From NCBI GenBank assembly GCA_029891345.1, contig CM056999.1, forward strand, positions 28,493,418-28,557,417: DNA of 64,000 bases, written 5' to 3'. Origin of the DNA: Dryococelus australis. Lineage: Eukaryota; Arthropoda; Insecta; Phasmatodea; Phasmatidae. The first letter of the stretch is position 1, and each line of letters begins with the position of its first letter. A model generated the notes under the pieces. It was not told the DNA's origin and did no database searches. It saw only the letters and a program-made list of their open reading frames with translations. A program made the position numbers and the translations under genes. This document shows positions 6,171 through 27,703 of the stretch, in pieces.

Positions 6171-7030
6171 AGTAGTAGGGAAATGAGGATTTTGGCGCAA
6201 GGTCGTGGGGCGCCAGAGCCGAGGATCCGCCATGTTGTTACGTCACCCGACCGCCATATTGGATGTCATTGACCTTTTATTCCAGACCCATATGACCTTT
6301 GACCATGACACTGACCTCAAAAACCTTTGACACCAAAAACACAAAAAAAAACTTTAAAAGATTCCAAAATACATATTAAAAAAAAACCGGAAAAAATTAT
6401 TGATAATTATTTCAAAATGAGTAAAATTTATTTTCAGAAATATTTGAAGGATCCTCAGAAATGACCTATTTCCCCCCTTAAAAATGGCATGTTAAGAAAA
6501 AAAAACATCAAATCCAACTTTCGCCCAATTGAATTAATTTGGGGTCTTCCTTAGGACATACAGAGCAGTGGCGACCATATTGGTTTAAAGGCATACCTTT
6601 TACCAATTAGATACAAGGGATAAAGGATAGGAGTCAGACCTAAGCATCAGTCATGTTGCATTCATATTGTAAACAGGTGACCTTTGACCTTGACCTTGAG
6701 AATGAAAAATCAAAAATTAAAAATATCGCAAACAATTCCAAAAAAATCACAAATAATTAATAATTAAATAAATTATGAACAATTATTAAAACATTAACAA
6801 CTCATAAATTTTTTTTGAGAAACTTTTATATCTGAATATCTCCCTATAACCATCATTAGTCACATTCGTTCCATCCATAGCAACCGACTGACTCCCGCAA
6901 GCCCACTCCTTTAACCTATACTCATTCTGCCATCAATTTTTTTCGTTTGTCATTTGTTTATACATTACTAGAGGCCACCATCTTGATATGAGACCCCCAT
7001 CTTAGTAGGTGACAACTATCTTGGTAGGCC
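6171..7030 (+). repeat. Left TIR of element A
   Basis: Matches the reverse complement of 13327-14210. Landmarks in order: gccatgttgttacgtcaccc (6231 on), runs of tgacctttgaccttgacc (for example 6678-6698), and 'ccaccatcttgatatgag...ggtgacaactatcttggtagg' at 6970-7030. These are AGGTCA hexamers and GCCAT/AAGATGG motifs seen on the opposite strand. The two arms are diverged but collinear. Confidence 0.75.
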
Positions 7031-9430
7031 CTTAGTGATTTTGCACTGTAGTCATTTTCAGTAGACTGTTAGATTGTCTTAAATATTTTGAGTAGGTTAT
7101 TCCTTTTGGAGCTTCGAAGATACGTTTTAATATTTCTTAATTGTGTTTAAAACGTGCGTTTGTTAGTTTTTGAGAAATGAAATGACTAGTTTAACATTTA
7201 GCCCTATTTACCACTAGCCTAGTTCCTATTCGCTCTGCTTCGTCAGCTCACTGCTCAACTGGACAGAAAACTTTTAATATTTAGTTTGGGGTACTCAAGT
7301 TTCTTTCTAGGGCTCTGTTTGGCCTGCTAGTATATTTTAATTTTGTCAGGAGCCCCCTAGCGAGATTGAATCAGCTATGGCTTTTTAAGTTAGATTTATT
7401 TGTGTCATCCAGATTAGGCGCTTTGGTAGGGCTGCACGTCACCGCCTCTTCCGCTTATTATAATCGTGTTGTCTTTAAGGGATTTAAATTTTTTGAGTAT
7501 TAATCCACATGAATTTTAGTGTCGTTTGAAGAATTTTGCTGTGTTTGAGGCTTGAGCACTTAATATTTGCTGTAATCTTTCACCATTCTTTAGGACATTT
7601 TTTTTTATATTGCACTGTGGAAATTTTATTGAGCTTAGTCATATCGATTCTAGTCTCATACTTGGTGCTTGTGTTCTTGAGTTGAGCAATAATTACTAGA
7701 CCGTTTGACGCAGCGTGAAAGGCGGTGACGTGCCCCATCCGTACGCACGTCTCTGAAATAAAAAATGTACAGCAGTGTTCATATAAAACCTCTACTTCTG
7801 AGTAGAATTTTGTATTTTACTTTGTTAGGAATTTATGTAGATGTCCGTTTAATATTTGCATATTTAAATGTATTTACAGCGCTTGAGATTATGGTTTAAA
7901 GTTAGTATTGCAGTTTTAAAGTTGCCATTCGTCAGGTGTGAACGCTCCTTAGCACTTTTCTTGATATTGTGGTCAAGTATAAATCTATGTTTACTTGCTT
8001 TAGGCATAGTTTTGGGTGCTTTAAAATTGTACTATAGGTAAGGATGACCTGTTTCGTGTAGTATCAAAGCAAGCGTAATTTTAAATGATTCTTTGGTGGA
8101 AAATCAGTCAATTTTGTACCTGAAATATTTTAAGAGCACCCGTCATATTTTTTTACATGTTCATTTTGCGGAACATATATTAGTGAAGGGTGTGCTGTGT
8201 TTTTTCAAGCAATTATTGTCAGTATTACAATTTGAAGAATATTGTATAAAATAAAATGTGTTTCACGGAAATTTTGTGTGCGCTGTTTTTAATTTCTAGC
8301 TTTGATATCCTGCCAACAATGTTTACTATAGTGAGTGTTTGTTAATTACACCTGATTTCGTGCCATATTGAATGCAGACTATATTTACCTTAACCACATG
8401 ACCCAGAATGACTTTTAAAACTAAAGATTGAGGATAAATTCGTAAAGGTTAGCATCCTGGCAGCCAAGCGAGCTGTAGGTCTTTATATTTATAGGTATAA
8501 AAACCTGTAATTTTCCAACCAATTAAAACATGTTTCCAATCAGTATACCTACAAACATGAGGCGAGTCTTTGATTTCATATATAATTTATTAAATACATA
8601 TTTGTTATTAAAAATTTTATGTAGCACAATTTTAAAAAGCATTTTTTAGATTAATTATATATAAATGTAAATATAGTACAATAGTACTTTCAAAATACTT
8701 TTTAATGACGTTTATGTTATACTTGTATCTCTTAATTTTAATTTTATTTTACCAAATTAGGTAAACATGAAATAAAACAAACTTTTTTTTTCACACACAC
8801 ATTTTATTCAATTAATTTATTACAGTCACTCATGCCCTCTAAAAACAATTACAATACTATTCAATAGATACGCATCCCAATACATTCAACTTTGTTGTAG
8901 ATTACAGTATTTAATGCATCTCGCTTTTCACAATAGAGTTGTCTTTGTGCGACAAGAGTATTGAGATAAAATATTATTAATGTTAATGTTCTAATATTGT
9001 TACATTTTATTTGGTAAATCATTTCGTATATAATGGCTGTCATGGGACGATTGGAACACTTTTATTGGGGATGTTTGTCACCTGGGTCAGAGCAAGTTTA
9101 CTTCACAGAAATAATTCACGACTTAATATATTTTTTCGTGTCTCGGAAGGCAAAGTTTGGGGTGTTTTTTTTAGCTAATTTTGAAGTGAGGTTACCTAGG
9201 CCGACAGCAGGGGTGGTTATATTTGCGGACGCTCATATAATAATTTTTGGTACCCAAACTTGAAACATTTTTCGTATTGTAATAGAACCACTACAAAGAT
9301 TATTAAAAGTCTGTGACAACATAAACTGTCAAATAATAATAAACTAATAATTGTTGATAACTCCCTACCGAAGTTTTAAATTAACATAGGGCGTTTGTAG
9401 ATGCCTATATTTTGACATTTATATACTATA
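7031..9430. other. Interior of element A, unrecognised
   Basis: AT-rich, no long open frame. A 13-bp perfect inverted pair (gcacgtcaccgcc at 7434-7446, ggcggtgacgtgc at 7721-7733) brackets ~300 bp and extends imperfectly outward, perhaps a small TIR element. Otherwise I see nothing assignable. Confidence 0.35.
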
Positions 9431-9431
9431 A

Positions 9432-9847
9432 GCTGTTCACGGTAATATGAGCACTTTTGAAAGCCCTGTTTAAGATCTACTTGTATGCACTTTGCGTATT
9501 CTTCCGCCTTATGTAAGAATAACACTGTCACGGGTCTAATCAGTTCATTCATGTATCGGTCAAGTGAAACTGTGAAATTGTTATAAAAGTAAACATTTTA
9601 CAAATCTGCTCATTTTTACACTTTCATGAATTAAAAAAACGGAATGCGAAACGTATAATTTAAATTATCAGAAATTGTTACCTAAACCTTTTTATTCGAC
9701 GTTAAGATACGGAACTATTTCCCATCCGTCGTTACCAACTTTACTGGGCTCATGTCACTCAGGGCGCCCGTTAAAAAATATGCAGGTAGTAGAAGTGACA
9801 TTTTTCTGAGGTTGATTTCAAAAGTGCTCACTTTAGCGTGAACCGCC
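9432..9847 (+). mobile_element. 416-bp MITE, CTGTTCACGG family, copy 1
   Basis: Left end gctgttcacggtaatatgag, followed by cacttttgaaagccct; the right end is caaaagtgctcactttagcgtgaaccgcc in complement logic, giving ~30-bp TIRs. Homologous over its length to 29268-29678 (inverted), 30214-30474 (partial) and 31085-31468, and shares only its ends with 34349-34579 and 55933-56165. Non-coding. Confidence 0.8.
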
Positions 9848-11420
9848 TTTATTTACCTTTATTTATTAATAAATTTTTTCGTGAAATAACTAGGGTTTAG
9901 TGTGAAATCATCAGCCATAGCTACAAAAAAAACTGATTTGCACTACTTAAAGTAGTCCCACTTTTTATTATTTTTTTTTTTTTTTTTGCAGAAAATAATT
10001 TTGTATTTAAACGAATTTCTAAAAACAGTGTACATAAAAACATGTTTCTACGTTTCAGAATGGAGAGAACACGCAAGCGGACCACAGATCATGGTAAAAT
10101 TTTAGAGGATTTTATGGAAAAAATGTTTAACACTGCTATAGATGCTTCAATGAAGACATCCTGGAAAGAGGATAACCATTGTAACACGCCTAAATAAAAA
10201 TAAAGGAATACTGACGAATGTCAGTTATGTAATGCTCTGGCTAGCTTAGTTAGGATATGCGCTGTTACATAACATAAATTTTGTCTTTGTAAACACTGAC
10301 CCAGAAATCTATGCCTTGACCAAATTATCCTTACTTATGCTACTGAATTTGCATAAGCCTCCATTAAAGATTTTTTATTTATGGGTTTGAATTGGCATAT
10401 CATATTTGTGATGACTCTCCTTGGTATGTTTCAAATATGAATTATAATTATAAAATATGTTATTGGCAAATCATATTAACGTAACAGAAAAATTTGCAAA
10501 GCTTACATTTATCTACCACACAAGCAAAGGCATGCAGCACAAACGCGTTATGCTCACCGGATCCACCCATATATTAGCTGATTTATAATGATTATCCTAC
10601 TTTCAGTGTTCATGCATCTCTCATTAAAATAATTATATGCGCTGGACTTGGCTCTGGACGATACAACACTGTAGTAGTCCCTAGAATCGCAATACTCCCC
10701 TGGTGACTGCTGCTGGAAGGACCTGCTACTAAAACGGATCTCGCCCCTCGCCATCAGGAACTGGTCATTCTCGGCCGCCTGCAGCTACCGTGGTCCTGGC
10801 CTCGACTCTCGTCGCAGCTGCCTCGCTGTGGTTTTGCCGTTGCTGATCGAACCCCGTGTCTGGCTCCTTTCACTCGTCGTACCTCTCCTGACCGGAGCAA
10901 CGGGCGGTGAACTCCGTATTCGGATGCTGAGCTGGTTCAGGCCTGGGTCCTTTGACGACGTGCCGGCAACATCGCCTCTACGTAGTTGACTCGTTATAAT
11001 GCATACAAATTATATTGGAAGTTTAACGATACATAATTATATCTTCCTCTGTTCTGGATTGATGAATTTCAGGGCAGTACATCTCTTCTAATCAAAGTCT
11101 ACGTGGAGCCTTATAATTATGCTGTCTCCAATCTTGGAACACTGTTTAGAAGAACCACTAACATTCGATTATTTGTTCCTAATAAAATCGCCGTTGTCAA
11201 TGCCAACCTGGTTTGTTTATGTTATACCACAGAAAAATACTTTCTAACATTCAAAATGCAAGGATAGAGTTACAATTAAATATTAAATTACCATCTGCGA
11301 AGGCTTTCCAAAACAGTTTCTCAAAAACACTTTGCATACTATCAGCTGACAACTTGATATTAGAACATAAATTATGGCAATCTAATATAATATTATGTCC
11401 CTACATAAAATAAAACAATC
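9848..11420. other. Interior of element A: short exon-like frame and GC-rich patch
   Basis: A T-rich tract and tttcag precede an ATG frame at 10062-10196 beginning MERTRKRTTDHGKI, which resembles the basic start of pogo/jerky-type transposases but is too short to be sure. 10550-10990 is a GC-rich island in otherwise AT-rich DNA, with a B-box-like ggggttcgatc on the minus strand. No known domain was found. The rest is unrecognised. Confidence 0.3.
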
Positions 11421-11429
11421 TAACATAGC

Positions 11430-12130
11430 CAGGTGTTACACCATATATGATATTCCTGAAATAGTTTAAAATGCCTTGCCCCAAGCATCACTACAAAAGA
11501 ATATAATGTCAGTGTTTTCTGCAACAGGAATATGGTCATACAAAGAGGATATGTTTAATGATTCCGAGTTTGTTCCTTGTGATGTTACTGAAAGACCAAA
11601 CCCTCACCTGATTAGTTGTTCGCTTCAATCTGTTCGACAGCCATCAACTTCCCAAATATACATGCATGAAAATAGTGGTATTAGTAAAGGAAATGAGTTA
11701 CTTAATCTTCTAAATCCTTCGACATTCTCTCCTCAAATAGTGAGACCACATTCTGCTAAAGTAAACATTTATAACGAAAATTCTTCAATCAATTTGAAAA
11801 ATAGAAGGAAACGCAAAACAGCAATTCTCACTAGCACACCTGAGAAGAATGCTTTAGAAGAACAGGAAAAAAACTATTTTCTAAATGCATATAAAATTGG
11901 CAGATTGGCAAGAAACAGGCGAAGACTAGGTTAAGAACGAAAATAACCTGCAGAAAAGTCACCACAAGTTCATCCGATGACGAATATTCTTGTATTGTGT
12001 GTTTAGATAACTTTAAGGACAGTTCTCCCAATGAACAATGGGCACAATGTGTTCCTTGTAATTGATGGGCTCATGTGCTTTGCACGAAAGGGGAACTGCA
12101 TTACAAATGTCAAAACTACAAGTCCAAATG
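11430..12130 (+). pseudogene. pogo/jerky-type transposase, C-terminal fragment with zinc finger
   Basis: In one frame from ~11435 the sequence reads YTIYDIPEIV, then an in-frame stop, then the 152-codon frame 11476-11934 with NIMSVFSATGIW, FNDSEFVPCDVTERP and RKRKTAILTSTPEKNALEEQ. These match the tail of pogo-superfamily transposases (xxISGFRATGIxPxNxxxFxxxDFxPxxVTxRP, then a basic TAILTSTPxKxxLE block). After the stop at 11932 a shifted frame gives CIVCLDNF...QWAQCVPCN, a stop, and WAHVLCTKGELHYKC, a C4HC3-like finger typical of the C-terminus of these transposases in invertebrates. The DDE core and DNA-binding domain are absent here. A plain DNA transposon fragment nested in A; non-functional. 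Confidence 0.8.
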
Positions 12131-13010
12131 ACATGATCAGGAAAACATGTTTCCATTATTATGCATTAAACTTCCATTCATATTTTCAAAACTTTATATT
12201 TTGTATTATTTTTAGTTTAAACATGCCATAGCCTTGTTTTAAAGAATTATATTCTCTCAATCTGTGCAAAGTACATGTGTTTTGTTACCAATCTCATAAA
12301 TATGACTTCAGCCAATCTTGATATTAAACTAGGCAGTAATAATGGCTTAAAGAAAAGTAAGTCTACTTAGTTTTAAGAGAAATATAATTCTTTGTGTTAT
12401 ATTGGCCAGTTTAGCTGTGAAATAAGATAAAACATAATATTTGAGCATAATAAAATTAATTCCTGCTGAGTTCCGAAGCCATTATGTGCAAATTGGACAA
12501 GGTTTTATTGTAAATTAAAATATGTTACAACCAATCCTCATATATGTTAAAAATGACCCTCAATAGGGGTTGACTTTAAAATTACACATTAATGTAGAAA
12601 ATTGCAATTTAACAAAAATGTCGACAATACACAGCTAAATGTTCACATGGACACAACCACAAAGAAATATCCTATATATCTTGAGTGACACGATCTCAAG
12701 AAAGCACTGGTTTAATGAAAAAAAAGTTAGAAAGACCCCAGTCTCCCCTACTATATGAAAATGTATATATATAATTAATTATAAATACTTCTTTAAAATT
12801 GCATATCATAACATTTTTAAAAACAAACCTACATTTAATCAATTATGCATGAAGTCAACGTCCCACATCATGCTTGTAGGTATCCTGCTGATTGAAAACA
12901 TCCTTAGTAGGGGGAAATTGCAGGTTTTTTACATATGAATATAAGGACAGACAGCTCGCTTGTCCTCCATCATGCTAACTTTTACGAACTTATTCTCGAG
13001 CTTTTGTTTA
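12131..13010. other. Non-coding tail between pogo fragment and right repeats of element A
   Basis: AT-rich, no open frame of note apart from the terminus at 12731. Probably pogo 3' untranslated sequence up to ~12752 and element A interior after that. Confidence 0.35.
12731..12752 (-). repeat. Probable right terminus of the pogo fragment
   Basis: gaccccagtctcccctac followed by TA resembles, in complement, the gtaggggagactgggg end carried by many pogo-type elements of this transposase group. It lies 600 bp downstream of the transposase tail, as expected. No matching left end was found upstream, so the element is probably truncated on that side. Confidence 0.4.
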
Positions 13011-13326
13011 CAAGGTCATTCAGGGTCATGGGGTCAAGACAAAGGTAGTCTGCATCCAATATGGTTGTGGTAATCTGTAATGTATTATGCTTGTTGACTT
13101 TAATGTATTTTTCTCGAGCTTTGGTTTTCAAGGTCATTCAAGGTCATGGGGTCAGGGTCAAGATAGGCTGCATATAATATGGTGGTATTCTGTAGTATAT
13201 TATGCTTGTAGACTTTTATGTTTTTTCTAGAGTTTTGGGTTTCAAGGTCATTTAAGGTCATGGGGTCAGGGTCGAGATCATTGGCATCCAAAATGGTTGA
13301 TGGGTGATGTCTACCAAGATGGTGGT
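13011..13326 (+). repeat. Tandem ~118-bp units with AGGTCA hexamers (right side of A)
   Basis: Three units begin at 13011, 13129 and 13243 with caaggtcatt. Each carries 'catggggtcaaggtcgagat', a 'catccaatatggtggt' stretch, 'attatgcttgttgac' and a ctcgag box. The same unit forms five copies at 22125-22680 in B and reversed copies at 17690-18150. Not seen on the left side of A, so A is asymmetric here. Confidence 0.8.
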
Positions 13327-14210
13327 TGCCTACCAAGATAGTTATCACCTACCAAGATGGCGGTCACCTAGCAAGATGGTAGTCGCCTACTAAGATGGTG
13401 GCCTCCAGTAATGTATAAACAACTGAATGAAAAGATGAATATGGCAGGATTACTATAGGTAAGGGGAGTGGGAGTGAGGGAGTCAGTCGTATGCTAGGGA
13501 TGGAACAAATGTGACTAATGGAAGTTCTGGGGGGGGGGGGGCCTTCGGAAATGTCAGTTTTTTTAAATTATAAGTTTTTAATTAATATTTTAATTATTTT
13601 AATAGATAATTGTTAAGAATCATTTTTTTTCTAGAAATTTCTTGTGATTTTAATTTTTTTAATTCTAAAGGTCAAAGGTCAACTGAATAAAATATGGATG
13701 CAAGATGGCAGATGCTTAGGTCTGACTTCTATTCTGTATCCCTTGTATGGAATATGGCATAGGGTATGCCTATAAAACAAATATGGCTGCAACTGCTCTG
13801 TAAGTCCTAAGGAAGCCACCAAATTTATTATATTCGGCGAAATTGTATTTCTGGGGCTTTTTTCTGCCCATGGGGAAGCTTTTACCATTTTTGAGGGAAA
13901 ATGGGTCATTTCTGAGAATTCTTTTAATAATGTTTAATAATTCTTTAATAATGTTAAAATTTTTTTCCAAAATTATTTTAGAGTTTCTCAGGATTTTTGA
14001 GGATATCTTTGAATTTTTTAGTATATTTTAGTGTTTTTTGTGGGTCAAAGGTCCTGGAGGTCAAGGTCGAGGTTGAAGGTCATATGGGTCGAGGTTAAAA
14101 GGTCAATTATATCCAATATGGCGGTCGGGTGATGTAACAACATGGCGGCTCCTCGGCTCCTGCTCCGACGCCCCATGCGCTTGCACCAAAGTCCCTATTT
14201 CCCTACTACT
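13327..14210 (-). repeat. Right TIR of element A
   Basis: Reverse complement of 6171-7030 with divergence. At its inner edge (13304-13420) five ~21-bp repeats of the type accaagatggcggtcacct follow one another. A perfect AGGTCAAAGGTCA direct repeat lies at 13669-13681. Ends ccctactact at 14210. Confidence 0.75.
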
Positions 14211-14950
14211 CAGTACTAATATATGGATCAAAAGATATTGGCGACGTTACTTGCTGTCTCCCAGTAGACGAACTCTTGCAGATCTCAGCATATTCCTTCA
14301 TTGTATCACCTGGTGCAAACTGCATGTCGCCATTGTCGTAATGTTTCATCGCTTGAAAAGTTATCTTCGTACAGGCTGTTCTCTCATGCCGTTGGGCACT
14401 GCATCTTTTATTGAAGGACCTGCCACGGTAAGAGAAACGAAGCCTTGAAGAAGTCATCAATTATAGCACTTCTGTAGTGGGATCCATTCGAAGAAGTAGA
14501 TCGTAGAATCGGTACCATGCCCATAGCAGATGACAGCAGTGCTACTGTAGGCAGCCCATTCGAAGAGGTCGATGGCAGTGTTACTATAGGAATACCACTT
14601 AAATAAGTCGATGACACGTCCATAGCTACCATTAGCTCTGGAATACCCGAAGACATAACAGATGCAGAATAAGACTTAGATGAGAAGATGCAGAAGCTAG
14701 TCGAGACGATGTATCATTCATGGAAGCTGCTTTCAAACTAAACCTTTCAGCTGACCTCCTTACTTCTTATAATGTATGAGTATGCAAGCCCTGTGACATA
14801 ATATTGGCTTTTAAACAATCGTATTACACCATTAATACATTGTTCGGACAACGACCAGCCAATCACCGAATTGCCCTATGATTGCAGCTGACTAATCATG
14901 TGAAGGTACTGAGGCATCACATCTAAACATACAAATTGTATCACCAACAT
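14211..14950 (-). pseudogene. Right-flank remnant of older element C: gene head related to those in B
   Basis: Minus-strand coding-like sequence (frames 14656-14408 and 14460-14206) shares GIPELMVAM...TLPSTSSNG with the gene heads of element B (TPELMVAMVVPSTSSG) and continues into a finger-like stretch with HERTAC. Upstream of it, at 14700-14900, the tgacctcc...tataatgtatgagtatgcaag promoter region and ccaatca boxes also match B. A third, older copy of the same gene head, broken, lying directly against the right target site of element A. Confidence 0.55.
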
Positions 14951-16867: not shown

Positions 16868-16873
16868 TACAAT
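16868..16873. repeat. Left 6-bp target duplication of element B (TACAAT)
   Basis: tacaat directly before agtagtatgg; the identical hexamer follows the right terminus at 27698-27703. Confidence 0.85.
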
Positions 16874-17690
16874 AGTAGTATGGAAATGCCGATTGAGGCA
16901 TAAGGAGATCGGGGATCGGATTCGGATTATGGGGAGACGCCATGTTGTTACATCACCCGGCCACCATTTTCCCATTTTTTCCCTCGAAATTTCATTTTTC
17001 CTTTAGAATCAACCAAAATACACTAAACTTGTCTTGTTCCAACTTAAAATTTCCCCCTTTCTCTCAAAACATCCCTTGTTTACATTTTAAAAAAAGGCCG
17101 CCCATGTGCATAAAAAAGCCATTGAAATCCAATTTTCACTCAATATGTCATTTGGAGGCTTCCTTAGGACCATCGGAGCAGTGGCGGCCATATTGGTTTT
17201 ATAGACATACGGTATGTCAGATCCAGGATCCAGGATCAGGGTCAGACCTAACCATCAGCTATCTTGGTAAGCATCACCCATCCACCATATTGTATGCAGA
17301 TGACTTTTGACCTTGACCTTTGAACTTGAAAATCCGAAAAATTCTAAAGATATCACAAAAAATATAAAAAAATCCCCCAAAAATACTATTAAAATTATCA
17401 TTAAAAGTTATTAAAAATTATAAAAAATTATTTAACATGTTAGAATTTTTCTTAAACTTACATTTCCCAAGGGGACCCAACACCAATTACTCCCACTGTT
17501 CGACTCCAGCAGACGACTGACTCTATCACCCTCAGTTCCCTCACCTTTATTCATTCCGTCATCTTGATTTTTTAGTTTGACATTGGTTTATACATTACTG
17601 GAGGCCACCATCATGGTATACGACTGCCATCTTGGTAGGTGGCCACCACATTGGTATACATCACTTGACTGTCATCTTGGAAGCCAATGC
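16874..17690 (+). repeat. Left terminal repeat of element B
   Basis: Pairs with 26859-27697. Contains gccatgttgttacatcaccc near 16941, the 'cttccttaggaccatcggagcagtggcggccatattgg' stretch at 17158 and, inward, tandem accatcttggtagg motifs (17600-17690). Also homologous to the TIRs of A inside the first ~60 bp, although the outermost ~50 bp after AGTAGTA differ between A and B. Confidence 0.75.
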
Positions 17691-18150
17691 CCATTGGCAA
17701 TTGAACTTTGACCTGTGACCCATGACCCCTGACCTAGACCCCATGACCTTGAATGACTTTGAAAACAAAAACTCGAGAAAAATATATACAAGTTAGCAAC
17801 TAAAATACATTACAGACTACCACCGCCATATTAGATGCAAACAACATCGACCTTGACACCATGACAATAAAAAACCTTTAAAAAAATCGAAAAAAGACAT
17901 GAACGTCAGCAAGATAATGCATTACAGACTACCGCCGCCATATTAGAGGCAGACTGTCTTGACCTTGATCACATAACATTGAATGATCTCGAAAACAAAA
18001 AATTGAAAAAAAAATGCACAAACGTCAGCAAGCATAATACATTACTGACTACCACCATCACACATGTTGTAGATTATCTCAACCGTGACCCTGTGACCTT
18101 AATAATCTTGAAAACAAGAACTTGGGGAAAAAATTATAAAAAATTAAGGA
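17690..18150 (-). repeat. Tandem ~118-bp AGGTCA units, left arm of B
   Basis: About four inverted copies of the unit seen at 22125-22680: tgaccttgaatgactttgaa, ctcgag, aagttagcaa...aatacattacagactaccaccgccatattag (paraphrased). The stretch at 17698-17757 is dense in tgacc hexamers. Confidence 0.8.
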
Positions 18151-18175
18151 ACATATAATATTAGCCCCCCTTACC

Positions 18176-18496
18176 TTGCTGGTCCCTCCACCACTACCCC
18201 AACATTGTACATCACAAAATCATCGACCACCTCAACCCTTCTTCATCATTCCTCCTGCCAGCTGGCCAACAACTCTTTCCACACTGTCTTGCACATCAGG
18301 CCTGCCTCAACCCTTTTCCCTCCTCGCTCCAAGTATGATGCATCCAACCTGCTTAGAATGCTTTACAGTATTAACCCAATGTCACTTTTTCTACGCTTCA
18401 TCTCAACATATACCTCTGTTACCATATTATGCACATACAGTAATAGACCATTACAGCAAATATTTAAGTAATAACATAATTCGACACATCATTTGA
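18176..18496. other. Conserved open stretch in left arm of B (mirror of 21803-22031)
   Basis: Open frames on the plus strand (18176-18496, 18205-18471) are matched almost residue for residue by minus-strand frames 21803-22031 in the mirror arm (for example SLAPSMMHPTCLEC). The opposite strand is also partly open and reads KRRKSD...RLDASYLERGGKRVEAGLMCKTVW, which looks more protein-like. It is uncertain which strand, if any, was coding; the similarity may simply reflect the palindrome. Confidence 0.4.
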
Positions 18497-18699
18497 CTTT
18501 TATTATTGTGCTCCCTTGCAGTATCGGCTTGTAAAGTCAAATCTGAAAACCAAGACCATCATATTCCTGATATCAAAGAGACAGTCTATGAGAAGATACA
18601 TCGACACAAGCGAGAAATAAAACAGTTTAATTTATTCATCGAAAAAATATAAATTTTTTACGAACATCCGACTACAGACATTAAAAACAGGTATCTATA

Positions 18700-19665
18700 G
18701 TTTCCATATATTCATGTAGCCTTACAGTATTTCCAGTAATAAGCTCACTTTTCTTATAGTGTATATAATCTGCTTATATGCAGATCGAGAAAGTTTACTT
18801 CAACAAGCTTCCAACCAGAACCCTTTTCCATATATTTTTGTTCTTTACGACAAAGATTTTCTTTTATGGCCTCTACAGCCCCTGGAATGCTATTAACGTA
18901 GTACAATGCTTGATTGACTGTCTTGAATGCCCGCCGGCAGACTCCTTCATCAAGAGGTTGAGGCTTATCATAGGCACACTGCAGCAAACATTTTACTTTA
19001 CGGGACAGTCTCCGAATTCCTCAGTTAGTTGATTAGTTATCCTTTTCCTAATGTGGCCCTAGGTATTTACATATGTCTTTTGTACCAGCAAAGTTATTTC
19101 CAATTACATTATATTTTAAAATGCTCTTGTATGCTGAATTTTATAGGTAGAATTCATTCGTTGTGGATCACCAATATATGTACAGTACGTTTCTTAGTTG
19201 CAGAAATTTTACCTTTACACTTGTTGGTATGTCTCTTCAGCTTATAACTCGATCGAACGATCGTTTGCATCCCGCACATTGTTGTATAACACAGGGAAGA
19301 CCCTTCACACAAGTAGTTCTTTCGTTCTTCCTCGCACTATGGCTGAAGTCAAATATCCAGTCACAGTAGCAGCAACGAATCCTTGACGAAGTTGTCGATG
19401 GCGCTGCTATACGTGGCCCACCTGAAGAGGTCGATGGCGCTGTCGACGCCATGTCTGATGTCTCCGATGGCTCCACTGCTGTAGGTGACCCACCCGAAGA
19501 AGTCGCTGATGCTGTCGGCGTCATGCTTGAAGAATACAAAGTCATTGCTGGTACCTTTCCCGAAGAAGTCGATGGCACTGCTATAGTTACAACTAGCTCT
19601 GTATTATGCAAAAGCATCGCAGATTCAGAATAAGACTTTGATGCGAAGAGGCACAAGCCAGCCAA
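18700..19665 (-). pseudogene. Left-arm gene of element B: C2H2 head + polymerase-N-like segment, fossil
   Basis: The minus-strand frame 19665-19237 begins MAGLCLFASKSYSESAM, runs through a Ser/Thr/Pro-rich stretch (PSTSSGG repeats) and reaches finger-like CCYCDWIF...CVKGLPC. Further on, 18987-18754 gives LDEGVCRRAFKTVNQAL, EQKYMEKGSGWKLVEVNF and LHISRLYTL. The (E)Y-x-GKGSGW-x-L...L-x-I-x-R-Y pattern is what I know from the region preceding the type-B polymerase in Polinton/Maverick proteins of arthropods. The polymerase itself is not present. Broken. It runs away from the central spacer, opposite to its twin at 20665. Confidence 0.6.
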
Positions 19666-19726
19666 GATGATCCACTTTTCATGGAAGCTGCTGTCAAACT
19701 AAGACACTAAGCTGACCTCCCTACTG

Positions 19727-19734
19727 CTTATATA
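19727..19734 (-). promoter_or_regulatory. TATA box of the left-arm gene
   Basis: cttatata (TATATAAG on the minus strand) ~60 bp before the first ATG of the left-arm gene, with ccaat boxes at ~19770-19850 (aaccaatcc, agccaatcaca, tgccaatcacg). The mirror arm has the same arrangement at 20596. Confidence 0.6.
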
Positions 19735-19880
19735 CGAGTATGCAAGACCTGTGATGTGATATTGATGGTGAACCAATCCTATTGCGAACACCATCAGCCA
19801 ATCACAGACCAGCTAATTACCGAGTTGTCATGTAATTGCACCTTGCCAATCACGTGCAATAAATGAGATATCACATGTAT

Positions 19881-20446
19881 GAGTCAGTTCCTCACAAGAT
19901 AGACCCCCACACTCACACACGCATACACTTAAACACTCCTACACACATCCAAACACAACTTACACACCCGAATACATATACACACTCAAACCCACCTACA
20001 AACCCAAACACGCGCACTCAAATACACCTGCCAACCCAAACACACCTGCACATCCAAACACACCTACACACCCAAACACATCTACACACCCAAGCACATA
20101 TTCACACATGCACACACACCTATACAAAACATAAAAACTCTTACACACAAAACATAGCTACACACTCCTACACACACTTACTCACCCAAATGCACCTACA
20201 CAACCAAAACACACCTACACACATTCTAACACATACGCATTCCCCCAAACACAGCTACACACCCAAACACAACCTACACACATACACCAACCCAAAGAGT
20301 CCGAAATATTCCAATTTGTCGACTGTCTTCAAATTCACTCCACCACAACCACCACATCCAACGTCACAACTGTCGCCACCGCCACCACCACCTCCTCCTC
20401 CTCCCCTCCTCCTTCTCTTCCTCATTCTCAGGACCCAGAGACTTAC
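19881..20446. repeat. Central spacer of palindrome B: C/A-rich simple sequence
   Basis: Between the arms lies a ~570-bp stretch dominated by degenerate cacaccta/acacccaaa repeats and ending in ccaccacc/cctcctcc tracts. It gives a 217-codon open frame (19863-20516) of His/Thr/Pro-rich low-complexity sequence, best explained as a read-through of stop-poor simple repeat rather than a gene. Not palindromic itself, so it forms the loop. Confidence 0.7.
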
Positions 20447-20479
20447 TCATGCACGTGATGTCTCAGTGCTTGCATGTGA

Positions 20480-20560
20480 TTGGCCAGCTGGAATCATGTT
20501 ACAACTCGGTGATTAGTTGGTTTGTGATTGGCTGGTGGGTGTTTGCAATACGATTGGTTC
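20480..20560 (+). promoter_or_regulatory. CCAAT cluster upstream of the right-arm gene
   Basis: Three attgg (CCAAT on the other strand) boxes: gtgattggcc (~20478), gtgattggctgg (~20525) and acgattggttc (~20550), 40-120 bp before the TATA box. The left arm keeps mirror copies of all three. Confidence 0.55.
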
Positions 20561-20595
20561 GACGTCAATATCACATCATATGTCTTGCATACTCG

Positions 20596-20603
20596 TATAT
20601 AAG
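20596..20603 (+). promoter_or_regulatory. TATA box of the right-arm gene
   Basis: TATATAAG about 62 bp before the ATG at 20665, inside tgcatactcgtatataagca, which is conserved in the mirror arm and, degraded, in the older copy near 14770. Confidence 0.65.
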
Positions 20604-20664
20604 CAGTAGGGAGGTCAGCTGAGAGTATTAGATTGACAGCATCTCCCATGAAAGGTGGATCATC

Positions 20665-21545
20665 TTGGCTAGTTTGTGCCTCTTCGCATCAAAGTCTTAT
20701 TCTGCATCTGCGATATCTCCGGGTACTCCAGAGCTAATGGTAGCTATGGTAGTGCCATCGACTTCTTCGGGAGTTGTACCAGCAGTGTCATTATCTCCTT
20801 CAGACATGACGCCGACAGCACCAGCGGCTTCTTCGGGTGGGCCACGTATAGCAGCGCCATCGACGACTTTTTCAGGACTTCGTTGCTGCAAATGTGACAA
20901 GATATTTGCATACAGAAGTGATGCGAGGAAGCACGACAGAACTTCTTGTGTGAAGAGTCTCTCCTGTGTTACGCAACAATGTGTTAAATGCAAACGACTG
21001 TTCAAACGAGGTAATAAACTGAAGAGACATATCAACAAGTGTAAAGGTAGAGTTCCTGCAGCTAAGAAATGTCCTGTACTAGCTATTGGTGATACCACAT
21101 CAAATGGATTCTACCTAAAAAAAAATTCAGCATTCAAGGAAATTTTAAAAGATTATATAATTGGAAGTAACTTTGCTGGTACGAAAACATATGTACATAC
21201 CTAGGCCACATTAAGCAAAGAATATTCAATCAATTAAACGAGGAAGTCGGAGAAGGTTCCATAAAGTATAATGTTTGACTACAGTGAACCTATGAAAAGC
21301 CTCAACTTCTAGATGAAGGAATCAGCCGGCGTGCATTCCAGACTGCCAATCAAGCATTCTACAATGTTGATAGCATTCCAGGGTCTGTGGAGGCCTTGAA
21401 AAAAATCTTCGTCGTGAAGAACAGGAATATATGGAAAAGCGTTCTGGTTGGACGCTTGTTCACGTAGACTTTCTTAAGCTGTGTATAAGCAGATTATATT
21501 CACTACCGTACAAGAATATATGGAAACTATAGAGATTCAATTTTT
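20665..21545 (+). pseudogene. Right-arm gene of element B: C2H2 head + polymerase-N-like segment, fossil
   Basis: The 179-codon frame 20665-21204 begins MASLCLFASKSYSASAIS, has a Ser/Thr/Pro/Ala-rich linker (residues ~20-65) and two C2H2-type fingers: CCKCDKIF...HDRTSC (residues ~74-95) and CVKCKRLF...HINKCK (~106-127). Downstream, around 21300-21540, plus-strand sequence corresponds to the twin's segment (RRAFQTANQAF, EQEYMEKRSGWTLVHVDF, ISRLYSLPYKNI). This pattern resembles the part preceding the polymerase in Polinton/Maverick proteins. No polymerase, integrase or capsid frame follows. Broken. The two arm copies have diverged from each other, so the duplication is not recent. Confidence 0.65.
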
Positions 21546-22124
21546 TGTCTGTAGACTGATGTACAAAAATAATATATGTGTTTTCAATGAATAAAAAAGT
21601 GTTTTATTTCTCGCTAGTGTCGATGTGACTTCTCCTAGCATGTCTACTTTCCCTGATATCAGGAATATTATTGTCTTGATTTTCAGATCAGACAATACAA
21701 GCCGATACTGCGAGGGAGCACAATAATAAAAATCAAATGATGTGTCGAATTATGTTATCACTTAAATATTTGCTGTAATGGTCTATTACTGTATGTGCAT
21801 AATCAATTATATGGTAACAGAGGTATTTGTTGAGATGAAGCGTAGAAAAAGTGACATTGGGTTAATACTATAATACATTCTAAGCAGGTTGGATGCATCA
21901 TACTTGGAGCGAGGAGGGAAAAGGGTTGAGGCAGGCCTGATGTGCAAGACAGTGTGGAAAGAGGTGTTGGCCAGCTGGCAGGAGGAATGATCAAGAAGGG
22001 TTGAGGTGGTCGATGATTTTGTGATGTTCAATGTTGGGGTAGTGGTGGAGGGACCAACAAGGTAAGGGGGGCTAATATTATATGTTCCTTAATTTTTATA
22101 ATTTTTTCCCCAAGTTTTTGTTTT

Positions 22125-22680
22125 CAAGATCATTTAAGGTCACAGGGTCACGGTTGAGATAATCTACAACATGTGTGATAGTGGTAGTCAGTAATGTATT
22201 ATGCTTGCCGACTTTTATGTATTGTTTCTCGAGTTTTTACTTTCAAGGCCATTCAGTATCGTGGGGTCAAGATCGAGCTAGTCTGAATCTTATATGGCAG
22301 TGGTAGACTGTAATATATTATGCTTGCTAACTTTTATGTATTTTTTCTCGAGTTTTTGTTTTTAAAGTCATTCAAGATAATGGGGTCAAATCGAAATAGT
22401 CTGGATCTAATATGGCAGTGGTAATATGTAATTTATTATTCTTGCTGACTTTTATGTCATTTTTTTCGAGTTTTTGTTTTCAAGGTAATTCAAGGTCATG
22501 GGATCAAGGTCAAGATAGTCTGCATCTAATATGGCGGTGGTAGTTTGTAATGCATTATGCTTGCTGATATTTATGTATTTTTCTTGAGTTTTTGTTTTCA
22601 ATGTCATTCAAGGTCATGGGCCAAGGTCAGGGGTCATGGGTCACAGATCATAGTTCAATTGTTAATGGGAATAGTCTTTC
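22125..22680 (+). repeat. Tandem 118-bp units x ~5, right arm of B
   Basis: Units start at 22125, 22244, 22363, 22481 and 22599, giving a steady 118-119-bp period. Each reads caaggtcattcaaggtcatg, gggtcaaggtcaagatagtc, 'tgcatctaatatggcggtggtag', 'aatgtattatgcttgctgacttttatg' and ctcgag plus a T-rich stretch. Rich in TCAAGGTCA. Confidence 0.9.
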
Positions 22681-24544
22681 AAGATGCAGACAAGTGATGT
22701 ATATCAAGTTGGTGGTCACCATGGAGTAGTAGTATGCAGGAGAAGACAAGTTGTGACGTAGATGAAGCCGCTGGAAATAGACGGTTTTATTATGGATGCT
22801 CTACCCGCCATCTGGACTTTATCCCAAAACATTGTGTTTATGTTAGTATGACGCTGTGAGGAGGGGTACTTTCGTAGTATTAAGTGTTTGACAAAGTGGA
22901 TGATAAATAAATAAATAAATATTATAATTTACGTGTGAAGTTTCACTAATTTATTATTGGTTTGGCTTAGTGCAATCAAATAATTTCCTCATAAAAACTA
23001 CTGACCGTGTGTGTGGTACCGGGGCCCAGAGTTCGGTTATGGGCGACAATATGCACGTGTTTTAGATACAGTGCTCATATATCTGGATTTGTGGAAAACT
23101 ATTGTTTGAATAAATTATTCAATAAAGTATAACAAGCATGCTACCGTTGTCGTATAATGTAGCGCAGGTTACGTATCAGTAATGAGTCCAACAAAACTTC
23201 TACCAGCAGCCTAGCTGAATTTATGGAATGCAAAGTGTTCTTGAGCCACGAATAAATAATTATTTGCTGGCATTTATATATAAATTCCTAACACTGACAA
23301 GACCCGAGAGGTTTGTTTCCAATATGACTTTATCTCTTTTATACACATTTGTTAATATAGAAAATTGTTTCTGGTAGATAAATTCGAATCCGATTTTAGT
23401 TATTCCTACTTTTTATATTACATTAGTTCTCTGTTCTGATACAATTTTACCTGTGGTACATAAGAAAATCACAGAAATTAAAATTTTTTAATGTATTGTC
23501 TGCACTGGACAATTAAGTAACTGTTCAGAAGGAAAAAAGGGGAGGGTTGACAGGAGACATTTCTGGATAATTTTATTACTTATATCTACAAAAGTTTTTA
23601 ATTTTTCTCCAAAAGTGCAATTTAGTACCAAGGGATTAGTAGCCACAATTTTAATTCTGCCCAACAAGCTAAAATATTCCACGTTTGGAGGGAAAACTAC
23701 AAAAAGATATTATTTCTATAAATACACTTTTAGGGATAGTAAATTAACCACCCTATGGTTAGGTTAAAATGTGTGAAAACTTATTCACCAGCTTTTTAGG
23801 TTACTTTGGGCAGTTTTATTAGATTAGGATACACTGTTGAATTACAATGGGTGAAAGGTGCATGCACTGCAATGATATCGATAACAAGTTCACATATACT
23901 AACCACTGCCAAAGTGGTCCACAAACGCACTTGTGACAAAATGTATTTGTTGTTACGTACTAACTTGTGCAATTATTATTTTTAGTGTGAAATAAATTCT
24001 CCTCTACATATATTAAAAAATATTCAGTGTCAATATATCAGAACCACATTGCGGAAACTTGACAAATGAACATCCCCTAAAAAAAAAAAGCAATGTCGCT
24101 AGCAGCAGATTATTCAGCTGAACCTGTAATGCTGCTTGCAGCAGTAACCGCCACTAGATCTGAGGCGGCGCTTCGGCCTCACATATTGCATTATTAAAAA
24201 TGTTTTACAAATAACTCGACATTCATATTATGCAGTTTACCTGCATTTATAAAAATGGGAGGAAAAAATTAGAAAATTTCATTTTTCAGATATAAAAATA
24301 ATGCTGTCACCCTGGTATTTTCTGTCATCTGAATAAACCAAAAATAAGTTGAGAGATGTGTATTTCATTTAATAGACGAGATATATATTTACATTAATGT
24401 GAGACTTGCTGTATGTATTCAGTCAGAGCACATCACATTTAAAAACATTTCATTCTATTCCAGTTTTTGTGTTAGTCTTTGGTCATTAATCAAAAAGTTG
24501 TTCATGATACTACGAGATTTAGGATTCGCTTAACAGCTAAGAAT

Positions 24545-24715
24545 TTCAGTGTTGATGAGGGTGAAGTGAAGTGGATATAGCGCAACAATGAAATGTAATG
24601 GTGGTGGAAACCGCAGAACCCTGAGAAAACCAACCATCCAGTGCCAACACCCGTCATGTTTCCCACGTGCGAACATACAGGGCGACCTCGCCAGGAATAA
24701 AATAGTTTTCATAGA
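24545..24715 (+). repeat. SINE-like dispersed repeat (S1), copy 1
   Basis: Shares the order 'gtggaaa..g.agaacCCTGAGAAAACCaaccat', 'catgtttcccacgtgcgaacat' and 'gcgacctcgccaggaat' with copies at 42235, 55245 and 63590. The most diverged of the four. Confidence 0.5.
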
Positions 24716-26593
24716 AACACAACGATGCCATATTTAACAGCTGTTAATGTACGCAAAAAATAAACGCAGTTTAAATACACTGCCACAAACTACCTGTGCA
24801 CACACACACATACGCACACATACATATATATATATATATATGCACACCCAACTACATTAATATTATGGTAAATAATACAGTGCTCGTATTGAAACTGTTT
24901 AAACTTCTAATGCACCTGTATGTCAAATTCAGCCGTTGTGGACACTACAATTCTTACTACAACAGGAACAAACTCCTCACGTGAACATGTAGATTGAAAA
25001 GTGGGGCGTGGCTGGGCCAAGAGGGCAGTTTACTTTGGGACTTGCCAGTTAACAAAACTTCATTTTTTACTTGCCTCATATACAGTCTATAAAGTATTCT
25101 ATGAATACTTTACCATTAAATCCCTTTCACCAATACCCATATGCAATTAAGTTAAATTGAGATGGTTCACAACCAAACTTAATATTTTATGAAATTTTCA
25201 AAGGTGCCAAAAGGCATCCACCTATCCTTCCCCAAGTTGAAGTTTTTGTTTTGCTCCTGAACAACATAACTATTCAGCATAAAAACAGAGGCAGAAAAAT
25301 AGATGATACATTTTAAACTACACGAGCATTAAATATACAATGCAGGTAAAACTTTCCAGTGATGATGTTTTTGTTTTTGACTTCCATTAAAGCGCCCACA
25401 TACAGTGTTTGAGCAGAATTGCAGTGTGTTTGATATTCACATTTACTAACGAAACTAGCGAATGATTTACAGTGCACTGCCTATTTACTATATTAACATA
25501 TATTTCAAGTGAGGAAAGGTGGGTAATTTTAAAACATGATACACTTAAGAAAATAACATTTTGAAACTCTGCAATAGTATAGCTAAAATTGCTTTTCAGT
25601 TGGCCATATCTTAGTATATACTATCAGACACATACAAAACCAACATATTTATTGCACAGAAGACTGATAAAATGACAGCGCCACAGCTAAGGTCCTGTAG
25701 TTATATGTAGCACGACCAAAATGCTGCATGCTTGTTTGGTATCCTGTGTGTGGCAGCGATGGGGCAGTTTCACCCTTTCCATACCCATGTTTCTGTGCCG
25801 CAGAAATCAACTCCAGCTAGGTGGCATATTATGTAATAATTGTCCATATGACTTAATGTTTTTTAAGCCCATTCAATTTATTAAAAATTACAACGTTTCA
25901 GACACAGCCATGTTCGTTTATGAAATTAATCAGTTTAGTTTGATTTTTTTCTCGAAAAATATTGTCTTACTTGGCTATGTTGTGTGTGATTAGTAATAAC
26001 CATATAGGCCTATTACATTTGCAGGTATTTTCTCCTATTTTCCGAAAAGCCCCTATTCTATATAATTACCAAATGAGTGCAGTAAAGCAAAATATAAAGT
26101 TTTAATGGCATATTCTACGCCGCAAAAAAAAAAAGAAGCTAATTTGGATTGTCATGTAAACAAAACTAACCAATTACCATTATCTTGGTTACACGTGTGG
26201 GCGAGATATACTGCAACTTTACTGACATACATAACTGACAACAGAACAGTTTGATATAACAGGATTATATGTTACTGGGTATCTTCAGCTAAATCCATGC
26301 CTATGCCGTTGCACTCTAGTTGTTTCAGGATATAAACAGCTGCTTTTTCACAAGTATCAGACAGCTGTTGTTATATTCGATTTTAGTACGGTTTGAGTTT
26401 TAGCATAACGTTTAAAAGCTCCTATAGTCGCCAGAACATTATTTCGTGACATATTCTCAAGGCAAATATATAGGAAATGGGAAGCATCTCAACCAAAACG
26501 CCGTATACAACACTTCCACGTAAACGTAAATAATTCATTACTTTACATATTAATGGATAAATTTATACCTAGTTAACTGAAAGAAACATATAC

Positions 26594-26597
<4 letters not shown>

Positions 26598-26653
<56 letters not shown>
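26598..26653. repeat. (TA)n microsatellite
   Basis: Uninterrupted alternating ta/at of about 56 bp. Confidence 0.95.
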
Positions 26654-26655
<2 letters not shown>

Positions 26656-26858
26656 TCAAAAAAGGTTGTATGTTAATTTATGTCAATTTTAATATTCTTC
26701 AAAATACACGCGTTGAAGATAGGCTGATACAATGTTTTTGGCCACTATTGATCACGTGACATTTTTACCGGAAAACAACAGTCTAACTCCACGATATGTA
26801 CTGGCTTCACTTGTTAACACTACGCGATAAAGGACATAGCCACCTCCTGGTGGTCACC

Positions 26859-27697
26859 CATCAATATGGCCGTCACCTACCAAAATTGCGGTCGTATACC
26901 AAGCTGTTGACCTCCAATTATGTATAAACAAATGAACGGAAAAATCCAAATGGCGAAATGAGTATTTATGAGGGGAGTGGGGGCGAGGGAGTCAGTGGTC
27001 TGCTGGAGTCGAACAGTGGTGAGCAAATGGTGGTTGTTGGTGGCGGGGGGGGGGGGGGGGCGCCCTTCGGTAATGTGAGTTGGAAAAAAAAATCGAATTT
27101 TTTAATATTTTTAAATTATTTTTTAATGATTAATTTTTAGTAATATTTTTTTGGGAATTTTGGGGATTTTTTTTTAAATATTTCGGATTATAAAGGTAAA
27201 AGGTCAAGGTCGAAGGTTAAGGGTCAAGTTTAGAAGTCATCTGCATACAATATGGCGGATGGGTGATGTCTACCAAGATAGTTGATGGCTAGGTCTGACT
27301 CTAATCCTGGATCCTTTGTATCGATTTGGCATACCCTATACCTATATAAAATATGACCGCCACTGCTCTGACGGTCCTAAGGAAGCCCCCAAATTAATTA
27401 AATTGGGTGAAAATTGGATATCAAAGGCTTCTTTCTATACATGGGTGGCTTCTGCCATGTTTGGGGGCTTCTTTTATTTTTTGAGGGAGAAAAGAGAAAT
27501 TTTAAGGGACAAAGGGAAATTTTTAGGGAAAAAGGGTTATTGTTAAGGTATTTTGGTTGATTTTGAGGGAAAAAAGGAAATTTTCAGGGAAAAATGGGGA
27601 AAAATTGTGGTCCATTCACGTAACAACATGGCGACTCTCCATAATCCGAATTCGATCCCCGATCCCCCTATGCCTCAATCGGCAATTCCCTACTACT
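26859..27697 (-). repeat. Right terminal repeat of element B
   Basis: Reverse-complement partner of 16874-17640. A G-run (27042-27060), 'aaaggtcaaggtcgaagg' at ~27197, 'catacaatatggcggatggg' at ~27243 and the 'cggtcctaaggaagcccccaaatt' stretch at ~27371 mirror the left side. The open frames here (27316-27546 and others) are read-through of the repeat. Confidence 0.75.
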
Positions 27698-27703
27698 TAC
27701 AAT
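27698..27703. repeat. Right 6-bp target duplication of element B (TACAAT)
   Basis: Directly follows ccctactact and is identical to 16868-16873. Confidence 0.85.

Follow-up and report, generated by a model that had tools for sequence, protein, structure and literature searches.

A dispersed palindromic element of Dryococelus australis, probably a non-autonomous derivative of a Polinton

Introduction

Can a transposable element consist largely of its own mirror image and still move as a unit, and if so, how might such a form arise? These questions are raised by element B, which lies at positions 16874–27697 of a 64-kb stretch of Dryococelus australis contig CM056999.1 (the whole stretch is called the window here, and all coordinates of element B are positions in it). 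A first-pass annotation of this DNA had described a giant palindrome with two diverging copies of the same gene, and had suggested that a dimeric or snap-back replication product became a transposing unit. In this study, we followed up this suggestion by computational analysis. Element B is probably an old copy of a non-autonomous Polinton derivative whose active form was a palindrome of ~6–7 kb; the origin of that form and the helper that moved it are matters that we infer.

Polintons are thought to replicate by protein priming in the manner of adenoviruses, although there is little direct evidence for this. According to passages of PMC8097293, intact vertebrate Polintons, also called Mavericks, are 12.7–24.6 kb long and have unique genes between terminal inverted repeats (TIRs) of 46–1447 bp, AGT-type ends and 6-bp target-site duplications (TSDs).

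Results

Comparison of element B with itself gave five inverted pairs of matching segments (E from 6e-25 down to 0), namely, from the outside inwards, 16874–17325 with 27216–27697 (77%), 17478–17653 with 26862–27036 (78%), 17730–18718 with 21509–22512 (86%), 18757–19458 with 20800–21505 (82%) and 19476–19888 with 20441–20854 (84%). This establishes the giant palindrome. Its arms, at 16874–19888 and 20441–27697, with inverted-repeat lengths of 3015 and ~3140 bp, are set around an asymmetric spacer that measures 552 bp (19889–20440; first given as ~570 bp) and consists of CACACCTA-type simple sequence and a short unique part. The outer limits of the annotation were exact: AGTAGT ends are found at 16874 and 27697, where the element begins with AGTAGTATGG and finishes with CCCTACTACT, both of the AGT-repeat type, and the flanking TACAAT (16868–16873 and 27698–27703) forms a TSD that agrees at 6/6 positions. 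Each arm contains, in this order, the TIR, tandem units of ~118 bp, a conserved stretch, an outward-reading gene and a promoter-like region that includes a TATA box; the same gene indeed diverges from the centre in both arms. What had been overlooked is a discontinuity in the right arm, where an unrelated, nested dispersed repeat of ~4.1 kb occupies 22721 to ~26858; 127 matches to it came from 40 scored of 4248 first-look candidates (here and below, such candidates are not copy counts, and matches come from listed or scored subsets). TGGTGGTCACC is present at 22710–22720 and 26848–26858, either as a candidate TSD of the insertion or as a piece of a 19-bp minisatellite. Without the insertion, element B measures ~6.7 kb. 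Palindromes are a known assembly hazard, and a false inverted duplication was considered; however, the arms differ by 14–20% over most of the aligned core, the insert is present in a single arm, the TSD is intact and the same form occurs at other loci, and on these grounds we reject an artefact, the chance of which is practically negligible.

The test set beforehand for a moving palindrome was a genome search for the same centre at different loci. With a 901-base arm query, 64 matches were obtained from 40 scored of 8193 candidates. Among 20 loci fetched from these matches, 11 (L009, L015, L016, L017, L018, L020, L021, L023, L025, L027 and L028, some of them remnants) extend, as read from the maps, beyond the TIR to either side of the centre; in L022 the opposite side is limited to the TIR, and the remaining 8 have one arm in the stretch that was fetched. 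Searching with the spacer yielded 58 matches (40 of 454 candidates scored), and all four loci chosen by the spacer alone (L029–L032) are palindromic, with a promoter and the gene in each arm. Alignment of the centres revealed base-level junctions common to element B, L028, L029, L031 and L032; L015 retains the right junction, L023 and L009 retain parts, and L030 has a slightly longer arm. At up to 3 mismatches the left junction was found 60 times and the right junction 140 times in the genome, while the reversed controls gave 0. Among the 100 of 140 right junctions listed, one lies 325–1305 bp downstream on the same strand for 15 of the 60 left junctions; all 15 pairs have the same order, and no other left–right arrangement occurs among the listed pairs within 3 kb. 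In a zinc-finger search, 196 matches came from scoring 150 of 18161 candidates, and 150 of the matches were listed. Those near left junctions (21 of 60) point outward from the centre in 27/27 cases, 11 of them, at 10 loci, beyond the spacer. Those near spacer matches likewise point outward in 18/18 cases, a comparison that took 40 of the 58 spacer rows, the other 18 being further pieces at the same loci. The outcome of the test favours a moving palindrome, and the proposal that it is a transposing unit is well supported by the TSD at the outer ends, by the 15 loci with both junctions and by the spacer-selected palindromes.

Two elements could also have been inserted head to head by chance, or one inside the other, in a region where mobile DNA is dense and where a second element, A, and another fragment lie at most 3 kb from element B. 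Against this, no TIR is present at the centre and the same centre is found at 15 loci; we consider such a coincidence very improbable and reject it because the centre is shared.

Three divergent right–right junction pairs were seen as well, at G000 C1:40854726/40857072, C2:907536/908116 and C2:72766456/72770710, with no left-type junction listed for them. Together with the surplus of right over left junctions (140 vs 60), they possibly mark palindromes with other centres.

The gene itself occupies 18621–19698 on the minus strand in the left arm (open piece 19240–19698) and 20632–21480 on the plus strand in the right arm, where C2H2-like fingers in the open piece 20632–21201 are followed, in a different frame, by a PolB N-domain. 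The promoter or leader regions lie at 19621–19888 (minus strand) and 20441–20709 (plus strand), with an outward-reading TATATAAG box at ~19727–19734 and at 20596, respectively. The first-pass reading as a C2H2/polymerase-N-like gene gains support from several comparisons. Pfam zf-C2H2 matches the fingers with E=0.0018, under the curated cut-off. A 136-aa region that is open in L021 shows 37% identity (E=5.5e-23) to the portion of a PolB encoded at L034 that separates the fingers from the catalytic part; the arm gene matches the N-terminal part of PolB genes of its own genome. A second PolB locus, L033, gives weaker matches (fingers 33%, E=0.003; L021-type region 34%, E=2e-4). The frames downstream in these two loci are recognised as Pfam DNA_pol_B_2 (L033, 2.7e-21; L034, 2.4e-5, under the cut-off, and 3.5e-8). 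PolB genes are numerous in the genome: scoring 91 of 6287 candidates gave 54 matches. When the N-terminal PolB frame of L034 (236 aa) was used as query against element B and L009–L032, matches were found in 18/25 loci, with E down to 7e-29. None of the 28 matches extends beyond residue 206 of 236, and in nine loci (B, L010, L013, L014, L016, L019, L022, L023 and L029) the match stops exactly there. Catalytic PolB frames as queries found a match in 1/25 loci, L019, and none in element B. The sequence beyond the break is common to the 19 arms aligned. Taken together, these results indicate that what each arm carries is the 5' portion of a Polinton-type polB that breaks off ahead of the catalytic domain.

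It could be argued that element B belongs to a separate Polinton-like lineage for which a palindrome is the normal, working layout, with the zinc-finger/PolB-N protein as an active regulator and not a remnant. This would be consistent with the short gene end common to the 19 aligned arms, with the TATATAAG or TATATAAA box retained, as judged by eye, in 17 of 21 arms with data, and with 30 of the 150 listed zinc-finger matches being free of stops in the matched stretch, again by eye. However, retention of the box could reflect recent ancestry, and no excess of third-position differences was seen in the finger part, either between arms (94/107/74 at codon positions 1/2/3) or between elements (16/14/17), nor clearly in the comparison with L030. 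In addition, no integrase, ATPase or capsid frame was recognised in element B among frames of at least 90 aa inspected by eye, five of which were run against Pfam, the capsid being sought without a model search. A search of IMG/VR for relatives of the zinc-finger protein gave 4 pattern matches, none confirmed. We regard a functional lineage as decidedly improbable, and the PolB fragment is treated as a passenger until shown otherwise.

Towards the ends of the arms, the TIRs (16874–17660, plus strand, and 26859–27697, minus strand) and the tandem arrays were recovered as annotated. The left array (17661–18165, plus strand) is visible as direct self-matches of 75–78% and is absent from the Tandem Repeats Finder (TRF) list, in which the right array (22094–22620, minus strand) appears with a 119-bp unit and 4.4 copies. 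The conserved stretch (18148–18620 and 21604–22088) found no support as coding sequence. Its left copy has an open frame at 18148–18468 on the plus strand, and the identity of the stretch between elements is 84.7–85.2%, compared with 82.3–84.8% for other segments, so that we reject it as an established gene. Its high arm-to-arm identity in element B is a local homogenised patch, which takes in the left copy and in which positions 21701–22070 are only 2–4% off the left arm.

We then asked how the two arms of one element are related. In a tree built from 23 of the 28 arms (both arms of L009 and L030 and the right arm of L032 were left out as short or too divergent), the two arms are sisters in 6/6 elements, in five with support of 100/99 or 100/100 and in L023 with 91/84, and a grouping by side requires 7 changes, with 7 rows on each side. 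None of 1152 columns is fixed between left and right arms, and 2 have one exception per side (24 of 28 arms; both arms of L009, the right arm of L032 and the left arm of L023 omitted). Since no column separates left from right, the element must have had nearly identical arms at the time of its spread. Arm differences in element B are 14–20% in 5/7 bins and 2–4% in the patch at 21701–22070 (heterogeneity, p=8.7e-9); they are also uneven in L015 (p=4.1e-4), weakly so in L029 (p=0.019), and not so in L023, L028 and L031. Our reading is that the arms were alike at insertion and would then have decayed independently, with local patches of gene conversion. Homogenisation of whole arms within each element was considered and rejected; in element B the clustering rests mainly on one patch. 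Past ~20850 the gene body of L030 cannot be aligned with that of element B, yet it is present in both L030 arms (83% alike) around the same spacer, while the gene leader (20641–20850) hardly differs between L030 and the other elements (0–9% stem differences). This might suggest that L030 is a mosaic, or that the leader is constrained.

The homogenised patches bear on a further explanation, namely that the inverted repeat grew on the chromosome, where recombination or gene conversion would have extended an ordinary TIR inwards over the gene before the element spread. TIR extension by recombination has been described for Foldback-like elements, whose arms, like those of element B, contain internal tandem arrays, and locally homogenised patches exist in element B and L015. 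However, the observed patches cover a few hundred bases and not 3 kb, and the centre-side boundaries of the arms are identical at many loci, so that extension would have needed one stopping place. We think this course of events unlikely, though it deserves to be taken seriously.

As to the class of the element, the terminal motif AGTAGTAGGGAAATG has 1073 exact places in the genome, compared with 4 for the reversed control. TSDs agree at 5/6 positions in the palindrome L032 and in element A, and at 6/6 in the deletion derivative L025, but the left end of the latter fits the motif at only 10/15 bases. Element B has the AGT-repeat termini, TIRs and 6-bp TSD of Polintons as described in passages of PMC8097293. 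It differs from the vertebrate Mavericks covered there in that arms of ~3 kb, beyond the TIR range of 46–1447 bp, hold the whole remaining gene and in that, at ~6.7 kb in total, it falls short of 12–25 kb and has no complete gene and no complete protein-primed PolB. Because it combines the end motif and TSD with a deviating size, TIR length and gene content, element B can be classified from its sequence as a non-autonomous Polinton/Maverick derivative, in agreement with its repetition in the genome and with the presence of longer PolB-bearing elements with the same termini.

One such element, of 20.9 kb (L036–L038; G000 C1:216843528-216864444), is bounded by a plus/minus pair of AGTAGTAGGGAAATG and encloses PolB frames that are 41% (E=1.6e-54) and 40% identical to the L033 PolB; its flanking hexamers agree at 4/6 positions. 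These frames were recognised solely by comparison with L033 and L034, while Pfam and PHROGs searches on pieces of the element gave no recognition. A frame at L038:2456-2761 looks, by eye, like a Polinton integrase; it has no Pfam match and no match in element B. Since the termini are shared, longer Polintons exist that could supply enzymes, and this family is a possible helper. L036 and L038 share with element B only short TIRin matches, and L033–L035 are without its TIR or promoter DNA, although L034 has a single spacer-like match of 43 bases. Just outside the right TIR of L016 lies an integrase-like frame (46%, E=1.7e-23). At L019 (1500–5700), of which one end was seen, a truncated arm adjoins PolB frames ~50–70% identical to those of L037 and another L037-type frame, and an ATPase-like frame was noted by eye; this is either a full-length Polinton with such an arm as its end or an insertion that is nested or rearranged.

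Discussion

Mirror-image arms with a terminal repeat at each end, as found in element B, are what a snap-back product would have. While the claim that the palindrome moves has stood, its snap-back or dimeric origin is something that we infer, with expansion of an inverted repeat on the chromosome as the alternative. The route that we propose is as follows. A Polinton would have lost most of polB and other genes, and one of its ends, comprising the TIR, the tandem array, the polB 5' end and the promoter, would have been copied back on itself when a displaced or nascent strand folded and primed its own synthesis near the promoter. The resulting product would carry a terminal origin at each end, so that the protein-primed polymerase of a helper might copy the palindrome and the integrase of the helper might insert it. 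Prior to insertion, folding back of the single strand could keep the arms alike, as with short TIRs, since the inverted repeat now spans the entire arm. Once inserted, each arm would accumulate its own mutations, along with gene-conversion patches from time to time and numerous internal deletions.

Several of our results weigh against this proposal and should be set beside it. The direct parent, with the TIR and promoter of element B and a full polB with a matching N-terminus, was not found among L033–L038, and the PolB of the third PolB locus, L035, has no significant match to the arm gene. TSDs are poor in L018 (4/6) and L009 (2/6), and their placement failed in 7 of 12 loci tried. In 5/7 bins of element B the divergence between arms equals that between elements, so that the sister relationship of its arms rests largely on one patch. 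The three right–right junction pairs misfit one single centre. The arrangement at L019 means that some arms may terminate longer Polintons or may result from nested insertion. Finally, the codon-phase tests gave no sign of selection on the gene fragment.

The nearest working analogue that we found, by analogy only, is the snapback genome of adeno-associated virus (AAV). In passages of PMC8235507, AAV snapback genomes are described as defective and self-complementary, in symmetric and asymmetric versions. Their 5' form includes the P5 promoter and an incomplete replication gene (partial rep); where the 3' form occurs as a dimer, two promoters meet head to head in the middle, an arrangement also seen in element B. 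Unlike element B, which belongs to a dispersed genomic family, the AAV forms described there depend on parvovirus replication and are extrachromosomal and packaged (PMC8235507). Two other systems resemble element B in part. Defective adenovirus genomes with inverted left-end duplications are protein-primed linear genomes with a palindromic duplication of one end; unlike element B, they do not form a transposing genomic family. Foldback-type transposons have long inverted repeats with internal tandem repeats, as has element B. They differ in their TSD of ~9 bp, compared with 6 bp here, and element B has Polinton termini and a gene with a promoter in each arm. A limited literature search found no report of palindromic Polintons, nor any on palindromes of defective adenoviruses.

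It is tempting to speculate further that a snap-back Polinton genome founded a self-complementary satellite that parasitises its parent. Such a satellite, carrying two terminal origins and a pair of outward promoters, would be maintained as a palindrome by fold-back replication, through which the arms are kept alike; its PolB N-terminal fragment or a fold-back RNA might damp the parent, and its copies may outnumber those of the parent. We advance this as a tentative idea that is on balance unlikely to be right. A dispersed family with a palindromic active form and shared junctions would be a fossilised trace of Polinton replication by fold-back, in which the sites of folding, the maintenance of inverted repeats and the success of defective Polintons as parasites can be tested.

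Neighbouring sequences

Element A (window 6171–14210) has AGTAGTAGGGAAAT ends and the TSD CAGTTC/CAGTAC. It retains TIRs and tandem units and has no match to the gene or spacer of element B. Its open frame at 11470–11931 has no Pfam match below E=0.1 and resembles the C-terminal part of a Tigger/pogo transposase. Just outside element A, positions 14602–14925 hold a promoter and gene-start fragment of the element B family. All 11 copies of TCAAGGTCA in the window lie inside elements A and B (6685–13250 and 17308–22616); elsewhere there are 4–12 in each of eight other palindrome stretches, none in L033–L035 and two in L036. TCAAGGTCA is the monomer site of FTZ-F1/ERR-type nuclear receptors, so that the 118-bp array may be a host-driven enhancer. 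Further along the window, open frames at 49374–50401 resemble the protease and the start of the reverse transcriptase of a BEL/Pao retrotransposon.

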